NCBI RefSeq assembly: GCF_003044185.1
Contig: NZ_PYYB01000002.1
Span: forward strand, 372,001 to 436,000
DNA: 64,000 bases
DNA from: Paraconexibacter algicola
Lineage (GTDB): Bacteria > Actinomycetota > Thermoleophilia > Solirubrobacterales > Solirubrobacteraceae
Direction: 5' to 3'
A program made the position numbers and the translations under genes. The notes beneath the pieces were generated by a model. That model saw nothing but the letters and a program-made list of their open reading frames with translations, was not told the DNA's origin and ran no database searches. Of this stretch, positions 1,754 through 2,972 are shown piece by piece; the stretch's first letter is position 1; each line of letters opens with the position of its first letter.

Positions 1754-2050
1754 TCAGTAGCCGAGCGCGAACTTGGCGTCCTCGCTCATCCGCTCCGCCG
1801 TCCACGGCGGCGTGAACGTCATCTCCGACTCGACGGACTCGACGCCCTCGAGCTCGCTGACGAACTCGTCGATCTGCTCGATGACCTGCGGGCCGATCGG
1901 GCAGCCGGGCGAGGTCAGCGTGAACGTCACGTGGACGTGCCCGCCGTCCACCGAGATGCCGTAGATCAGCCCGAGCTCCGGGAAGCTCAGCCCGAGCTCC
2001 GGGTCGATCACGTTCTCGAGCGCGGCCTCGACGTCGTCAACGGTCACCAT
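1754..2050 (-). CDS. DUF59/MIP18-family iron-sulfur assembly factor
   Basis: Small cytoplasmic protein (98 aa) of the SufT/PaaD/MIP18 family, whose members help mature or insert Fe-S clusters. The hallmark SPGCP motif with its conserved Cys is at residues 48-52, and the acidic VIDPELGLSFPELGLIY segment near the N-terminus is also typical. The length matches stand-alone family members. No suf genes are next to it, so the partner is not shown by context. A TAGACT -10 box sits 6 bases before the ATG with no Shine-Dalgarno, so the mRNA is probably leaderless. Its promoter is back-to-back with that of the STAS gene on the other strand. Confidence 0.9.
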   Translation of the reverse strand: MVTVDDVEAALENVIDPELGLSFPELGLIYGISVDGGHVHVTFTLTSPGCPIGPQVIEQIDEFVSELEGVESVESEMTFTPPWTAERMSEDAKFALGY

Positions 2051-2064
2051 GCGCCCAGTCTAGC

Positions 2065-2094
2065 TTGAGCGGTCGGCGGGCTCCGGGATAGGGT
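2065..2094 (+). promoter_or_regulatory. Promoter of the STAS gene (-35 TTGAGC, -10 TAGGGT)
   Basis: TTGAGC at 2065-2070 and TAGGGT at 2089-2094 are separated by 18 bases. The -10 box ends 6 bases before codon ATC at 2101, the same spacing seen at the leaderless genes of this window. The box itself contains an in-frame stop (TAG 2089-2091), so translation cannot begin further upstream in this frame. Confidence 0.6.
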
Positions 2095-2100
2095 CGCGCC

Positions 2101-2409
2101 ATCGTCGACTTCCACGATGAGCCCCCGTTCCTGCGCTGCTCCGGCGACGAGGACCGCACGACGCAGAGCCGCCGTCGCCGGGCCCTCTCGCGGGCGCTGC
2201 GCGCCCGTGGCGAGCTCGTCGTCGACCTCAGCGAGCTCGCGTGGGCCGACGCGTCGCTGATGCTCGACCTGATGATGGTCGCCCGCCGCCTGCGCCAGGT
2301 CGGGCACGGCATGGTGCTGCGCGGCGCGCAGCCGCAGATCGCACGGCTGATCGAGCTCGTCGGCCTGCACCGGCTGCCGGGCGTCCGCGTCGAGCCCGCA
2401 CCCGCCTGA
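2101..2409 (+). CDS. STAS-domain protein (anti-sigma factor antagonist-like), apparent AUC start
   Basis: Single STAS domain of about 102 residues, the SpoIIAA/RsbV fold that normally binds anti-sigma kinases. The core reads LVVDLSELAWADASLMLDLMM; the Asp-Ala-Ser keeps the Ser aligned with the phosphorylated Ser of SpoIIAA. The frame has a stop at 2089 and no ATG, GTG or TTG before the domain starts. Codon ATC at 2101 lies exactly where a leaderless mRNA from the adjacent promoter should begin; CTG at 2131 is the only other plausible start and would cut off ten residues. No cognate kinase or sigma factor is adjacent. The coding call is firm; the start is inferred. Confidence 0.75.
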   Translation: MVDFHDEPPFLRCSGDEDRTTQSRRRRALSRALRARGELVVDLSELAWADASLMLDLMMVARRLRQVGHGMVLRGAQPQIARLIELVGLHRLPGVRVEPAPA

Positions 2410-2462: not shown

Positions 2463-2972
2463 GTGCGCATGCCGCTCCTCCTGGTCCTCCTGTTCCTGCT
2501 CGTCCCGATCGTCGAGCTCTACGTGATCATCCAGGTCGGCCAGGCGATCGGCGTCCTCAACACGATCGGGATCCTGATCCTCGACTCGGTGCTCGGCACC
2601 GTGCTGCTGCGCTCGCAGGGTCGCGCGGTCTGGCGGCGCTTCAACGAGGCGCTCGCCGCGGGCCGGCCGCCGGCCCGCGAGGTCCTCGACGGGGCGCTCG
2701 TCATCTTCGGCGGCGCGCTGCTGCTGACGCCCGGCTTTCTCTCCGACGTGCTGGGCATCGTGCTGCTGCTGCCGCCCACGCGCGCGGTCGTGCGGCGCAT
2801 CCTGCTGCGCGGCGCGCTGAGCCGGATCGCGTTCACGGTCGGCGGCCCGTTCGGCGCGGCCGGCGCGAACGCGGCGATGCGCGGCCGTCCGGGACCGCGC
2901 CGTCCCGCCGAGGACGACGTCGTCGAGGGCACCGCGCACGAGATCCACGACCCCCGCAAGGAGCTCCCGTGA
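2463..2972 (+). CDS. fxsA: FxsA family membrane protein
   Basis: Integral membrane protein of the FxsA family (169 aa from this start). In E. coli FxsA relieves F-plasmid exclusion of phage T7; its cellular role is otherwise unclear. The family signature is clear: a first helix ending in PIVELYVIIQVGQAIG, then a TPGFLSDVLGI motif and the final helix, with a charged cytoplasmic tail. GTG 2463 is chosen because TAGCCT (2452-2457) lies 5 bases before it; ATG 2469 is a close alternative. It overlaps the next gene by 4 bases (GTGA), so the two are translationally coupled. Confidence 0.85.
   Translation: MRMPLLLVLLFLLVPIVELYVIIQVGQAIGVLNTIGILILDSVLGTVLLRSQGRAVWRRFNEALAAGRPPAREVLDGALVIFGGALLLTPGFLSDVLGIVLLLPPTRAVVRRILLRGALSRIAFTVGGPFGAAGANAAMRGRPGPRRPAEDDVVEGTAHEIHDPRKELP

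Follow-up and report, generated by a model that had tools for sequence, protein, structure and literature searches.

Where does translation begin in a bacterial gene whose reading frame offers no conventional start codon before its first folded segment? This question is raised by a STAS-domain gene of Paraconexibacter algicola, located in a window of 64,000 nucleotides of contig NZ_PYYB01000002.1 (the whole stretch of DNA analyzed, to which the coordinates in Table 1 refer). The forward-strand frame at 2101–2409 is preceded by an in-frame stop (TAG, 2089–2091), 12 nt 5′ of an ATC codon, and remains open until the TGA at 2407–2409. Its product exceeded the Pfam cut-offs for both STAS_2 (E = 2.5e-11) and STAS (E = 1.4e-7), and the earliest in-frame ATG, GTG or TTG is an ATG at codon 54, within the fold. 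The original prediction, made from sequence alone, had described this stop, the lack of a canonical start before the STAS domain, and a −35/−10 pair pointing to the ATC at 2101; these descriptive parts held on inspection of the sequence and in the Pfam search. It had further proposed that the gene starts with AUC on a leaderless mRNA. Based on comparative sequence evidence, without RNA or protein data, the likely answer is a leaderless mRNA with a weak AUC start, shared across the clade.

Table 1. Features at the STAS locus (positions in the 64,000-nt window).
Feature	Position	Strand	Details
FeS_assembly_P (SufT/PaaD-like) gene, divergent, leaderless-type, ATG start	1754..2050	-	Pfam PF01883
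-10 box TAGACT of the divergent iron-sulfur gene	2057..2062	-	6 nt to ATG; overlaps STAS promoter region
-35 box TTGAGC	2065..2070	+	18-nt spacer; TTG at 15-19 nt spacer in 44/69 relatives
-10 box TAGGGT	2089..2094	+	6 nt (CGCGCC 2095-2100) to ATC; contains in-frame stop TAG 2089-2091
ATC start codon, also inferred transcription start	2101..2103	+	ATC in 72/75 relatives
STAS-domain protein gene	2101..2409	+	102 aa, start codon ATC, stop TGA 2407-2409
Codon 2, GTC	2104..2106	+	GTC 64/75, ATC 8/75, GTG never
Site of the A/C-rich motif (+16 to +20)	2116..2121	+	window species reads GATGAG, motif lost
FxsA-like membrane protein gene	2469..2972	+	Pfam PF04186, E=1e-37; downstream neighbour in most of 70 loci

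A genome search recovered the STAS gene from 75 of 146 Solirubrobacteraceae genomes, representing 16 of the 25 genera, and in a class-level sample of 399 genomes matches at E ≤ 1e-12 were confined to this family. The start region was read in all 75 genes. An alignment of this region among relatives had been suggested as a check by the original prediction, and it showed the codon aligned with 2101 to be ATC in 72 genes, ATG in two (L012, L074) and GTG in one (L073). The replacements represented three separate changes on a protein tree built without residue 1, many forks of which were weak. Because 99.5% of the Ile codons in the window genome are ATC, the third-base C alone proves nothing; what argues for an ATC start is its position, the stops, and the replacement of this very codon by ATG or GTG. 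Among the 72 ATC genes, 39 contained no canonical start in the interval from the upstream in-frame stop to the ATC, most often owing to the −10 box TAG, and 17 of these 39 also lacked one before codon 28. The gene meets the criterion of a non-canonical, conserved start codon that characterizes the infC/sigR class.

One alternative is that a canonical start was misplaced by a sequencing or assembly error, or that an upstream start adds an N-terminal extension. Some relatives do have an open upstream frame holding GTG or ATG, but 72 genomes agree on ATC, no extension is possible in the 39 genes without a canonical start after the upstream stop, and in the window the TAG in the −10 box already refutes it. 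We regard this explanation as practically eliminated. The ATC at 2101 is neither a chance occurrence nor a sequencing error, and the latter, which would have refuted the predicted start, is ruled out.

A second alternative is a later start at a CTG, TTG or GTG at codon 10 or 11, which would leave the ATC region as untranslated leader sequence or as a DNA operator. In its favor, codon 11 is CTG, TTG or GTG in 51 of 70 species and codon 10 is GTG in 21 of 70, and the constraint on nucleotides in codons 2 and 6, described below, shows a non-coding role of this stretch. Against it, no canonical start is conserved there, and the window species has none until codon 54. Replacement by ATG or GTG was observed at codon 1 only, and codons 1–9 display amino-acid conservation of the coding type. 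In the AlphaFold model of 26 Solirubrobacteraceae STAS sequences (pLDDT 94.7), strand 1 comprises residues 2–6 and strand 2 residues 9–17; beginning translation at codon 10 or 11 would delete strand 1, which makes up part of the predicted fold from residue 2 onward, so that in the model the ATC start coincides with the edge of the STAS domain. A later start is hence highly improbable.

The leaderless nature of the transcript is inferred from the DNA, and the fixed −10 spacing supports it. A TANNNT element was found 5–9 nt 5′ of the STAS start in 69 of the 75 genes (gap 6, n = 37; gap 7, n = 19; gap 5, n = 5; gap 8, n = 5; gap 9, n = 3). T and A occupy positions 1–2 of this element and T position 6, and TAGGTT/TAGGGT are its commonest forms. 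For comparison, codon usage served to call genes of the window genome, both within the window and in the other genome parts obtained. In the first 864 kb (750 genes), TANNNT ended 6 nt upstream of 5.3% of candidate ATG/GTG codons vs. 0.2% of others, the excess covering gaps 6–10. Within 2.06 Mb, the leaderless layout was assigned to 424 of 1862 genes (285 ATG, 139 GTG), and it occurred with TTG once in 144 candidates. The claim that twelve or so other genes in the window share the same −10-to-start distance also held, with 15 of the 56 genes called there. The distribution of STAS gaps (mode 6) matches that of the ATG/GTG leaderless genes of the window genome, and the −10 spacing criterion for a leaderless mRNA gene is met. 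Of 69 STAS genes, 44 have a TTG −35 element 15–19 nt 5′ of the −10 box, vs. 13 among 181 leaderless genes in the window genome: a good-looking STAS promoter is paired with a poor start codon. A leaderless mRNA need not be assumed for every species, since the gap is 5 nt in five relatives and a few lack a TANNNT at leaderless spacing. The 5′ end of the STAS mRNA did not differ from that of other leaderless genes in being unusually open or folded.

ATC codons at the leaderless gap occurred at background level in the 2.06 Mb of the window genome, and apart from the STAS gene none of them lacked a canonical start close by, within the limits applied. Genome-wide use of AUC was rejected, the STAS gene being the sole such case in these 2.06 Mb. 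As a separate observation, an ATC on the minus strand (G000 C1 1020277, locus L241) lies 6 nt after TAGGGT, has a stop 12 nt upstream and heads a 188-aa open frame; given an ATG at its codon 7, an ordinary start is possible for this frame.

A third alternative retains the AUC start and assumes that a promoter farther upstream yields a leadered mRNA, with the AGG of TAGGTT, or GGAGGAG in the genus designated g6, acting as Shine-Dalgarno sequence. Several points favor it. In the four g6 species (L012, L017, L025, L026), GGAGGAG stands immediately before codon 1 (ATC in three, ATG in one) in place of the −10 spacing. GG follows TA in most STAS −10 boxes, more so than in the other leaderless promoters of the window genome, and the AGG of TAGGTT could be a weak Shine-Dalgarno sequence on a longer transcript. 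Moreover, AUC combined with a Shine-Dalgarno sequence is weakly yet genuinely active in mycobacteria (PMC4633059), and Streptomyces infC uses ATC (PMC5472188). Against it, outside g6 the element acts like a −10 box, with its T1, A2 and T6 and its associated −35 TTG in 44 of 69, and the gap distribution equals that of leaderless ATG/GTG genes. We consider a leadered AUC start unlikely. A GGAGG-type ribosome binding site is absent in the window species and was seen among the relatives only in the four g6 species, and the upstream ribosome binding site typical of the infC/sigR class is a criterion the window STAS gene does not meet. The g6 sequences suggest an apparent switch from leaderless to leadered within one genus, and their Shine-Dalgarno sequence is an independent sign of initiation at the aligned codon. 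The predicted AUC start at 2101 is supported by the conserved ATC, the three ATG/GTG replacements, the g6 Shine-Dalgarno sequence and AlphaFold strand 1.

Two synonymous constraints following the start codon are new observations and, together with the start position, the −10 spacing and the conservation of both, are established from the sequences. At codon 2, the third base was C in 67 of 70 species vs. 45.4 expected, and GTG was never found, 21.4 third-base G being expected. Only one synonymous change had occurred among the 60 Val rows of the 70 species at this codon, compared to 6 to 20 in other well-populated Val columns. A GTG at this codon could itself serve as a leaderless start, and its absence therefore hints that a more efficient start has been selected against. 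Elsewhere in the window genome, codon 2 likewise shows a mild shortage of third-base G, and because codon 2 of the STAS gene rarely changes, the absence of GTG rests on few independent lineages. The original prediction suggested that AUC probably limits the amount of protein; this is plausible and consistent with the missing GTG, the effect on expression being inferred, without a measurement.

At codon 6, the third base was A or C in 69 of 70 species and never G (37.0 expected). Glu was encoded there by 34 GAA and no GAG, although GAA accounts for 8% of the Glu codons elsewhere in the STAS gene, and the codon state underwent at least 13 changes on the tree, never being GAG. The corresponding +16 to +20 motif read GAACA in 28, GACA in 22, GCACA in 6 and GAAA in 6 of the 70 species. 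Its loss in the window species means that the motif cannot be essential there. The motif as a general leaderless feature was rejected, since GAA and GAG stand at 1:5 at codon 6 of 181 leaderless genes and at 1:9 in 207 genes with a Shine-Dalgarno sequence. In E. coli, leaderless translation is raised by CA repeats downstream of the start codon (PMC9031893), and on these grounds our preferred reading of the motif is a downstream helper for the weak start; a DNA operator or an RNA-binding site remains possible and is not excluded. A bolder reading would take the 5′ AUC, the GUG-avoiding codon 2 and the A/C-rich motif as one distinct, selected initiation signal, read by the ribosome or a factor and regulating this single STAS gene across the family; the balance of evidence tips slightly against it.

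Regarding the protein, the best Foldseek matches of the STAS model were SpoIIAA structures, the top one being SpoIIAA bound to SpoIIAB (TM 0.82). In its fold, the window protein resembles the anti-sigma factor antagonists SpoIIAA and RsbV, as does its Pfam match to STAS_2, and the fold criterion for a SpoIIAA-type antagonist is met by AlphaFold, Foldseek and Pfam. It differs from them in that the residue at the D-x-S serine position is not conserved among relatives, and in scoring below the NCBIfam cut-offs for anti-sigma antagonists. The position motif-aligned with the phosphorylated serine (D-x-S; D-S-S-G type) was occupied by A in 21, P in 21, T in 14, S in 11 and others in 8 of the 75 homologues (A, P, T, S, V, G, M and F being seen across relatives), which do not share a conserved phosphorylatable Ser/Thr after Asp. 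As this residue is not conserved, the label “classical anti-sigma factor antagonist” is not justified. No gene for an anti-sigma kinase partner was found adjoining the STAS gene, considering neighboring genes at the locus only.

The divergent iron-sulfur assembly gene accompanied the STAS gene in all 70 loci examined. The leaderless-type promoters of the two genes point away from each other and overlap, with the iron-sulfur −10 box (2057–2062, minus strand) adjoining the STAS −35 box (2065–2070, plus strand). In most of the STAS-less genomes in which the iron-sulfur gene was found (n = 12), the FxsA gene directly follows it. The STAS gene at the iron-sulfur/FxsA locus is a case of clean presence or absence.

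In the mechanism that we propose, a sigma-70-type promoter (TTGAGC, 18 nt, TAGGGT) would set the mRNA 5′ end at 2101 or within a base or two, and translation would begin at the 5′-terminal AUC, with the initiator tRNA pairing despite a third-base mismatch; both the leaderless transcript and initiation by fMet-tRNA are inferences. A special initiator tRNA was not apparent among the 45 tRNAs, which comprised one ordinary-looking initiator (GGG/CCC anticodon stem) and one ordinary tRNA-Ile(GAT). The weak start would be retained family-wide most likely to hold a regulator-type STAS protein at a low level, the lowering of expression by AUC being inferred. It would also make STAS expression sensitive to initiation fidelity, and thereby to IF3, and to the leaderless pathway, while the A/C-rich motif may help to position the ribosome on the weak start, a role that is likewise inferred. 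As IF3 represses the AUU/AUC start of infC and the GTC start of sigR, its control of the STAS gene is a reasonable inference by analogy.

In Streptomyces, the GTC start codon of sigR is repressed by IF3 and conserved in 32 of 34 species (Feeney et al., 2017; PMC5472188). The STAS gene and sigR share a non-canonical, clade-conserved start codon in an actinobacterial regulator gene of sigma/anti-sigma type, and both are overlooked by gene finders that assume ATG, GTG or TTG. The two differ in that sigR combines GTC with an extensive ribosome binding site (AGGAGGTG), whereas the STAS gene has AUC at the inferred 5′ end, without a Shine-Dalgarno sequence in most species, and in that IF3 control has been shown for sigR and is only inferred here. 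The start codon of infC, the IF3 gene, is AUU in E. coli, in Streptomyces ATC, and this non-canonical start is repressed by IF3 (PMC5472188). Keeping an AUC/AUU start for regulation through IF3 discrimination would be common to infC and, by inference, the STAS gene; infC differs in being leadered and in encoding IF3 itself. In Solirubrobacteraceae (L077 1447–1501, L148–L176), infC has GTG, ATG or TTG at the conserved position (GTGCCGGT...), in contrast to Streptomyces infC with its ATC, and IF3 may consequently not regulate itself there by way of the infC start codon. That infC shares AUC in this family was rejected, since these codons at the conserved position leave no need for it.

In mycobacterial reporters, leaderless initiation was obtained at ATG and GTG only, ATC being a presumed negative control (Shell et al., 2015; PMC4633059). 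Mycobacterial leaderless genes and the STAS gene have in common a start codon at the mRNA 5′ end, inferred for the latter, and a layout common in the genome; they differ in that the former use only ATG or GTG, whereas ATC is the conserved STAS codon. With ATC in 72 of 75 genes, the STAS gene departs from the mycobacterial rule, which requires AUG or GUG as the 5′-terminal codon. Precedents exist for non-canonical starts and for leaderless genes alike, and it is their combination that conflicts with this rule (PMC4633059). A bacterial leaderless AUC start was not found in the open-licence literature searched, which yielded mitochondrial, archaeal and eukaryotic cases only; as far as this literature shows, a family-wide leaderless AUC is new.

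Gene finders and the rules of leaderless translation allow only AUG and GUG, with UUG when leadered, and as standard gene callers disallow ATC, such genes are likely mis-annotated. If true, a leaderless AUC in at least 16 genera would mean that near-cognate starts can function at the 5′ end and be selected for, and the STAS gene of the Solirubrobacteraceae would offer a natural system in which to test the cooperation of initiator tRNA, IF3 and downstream sequence.
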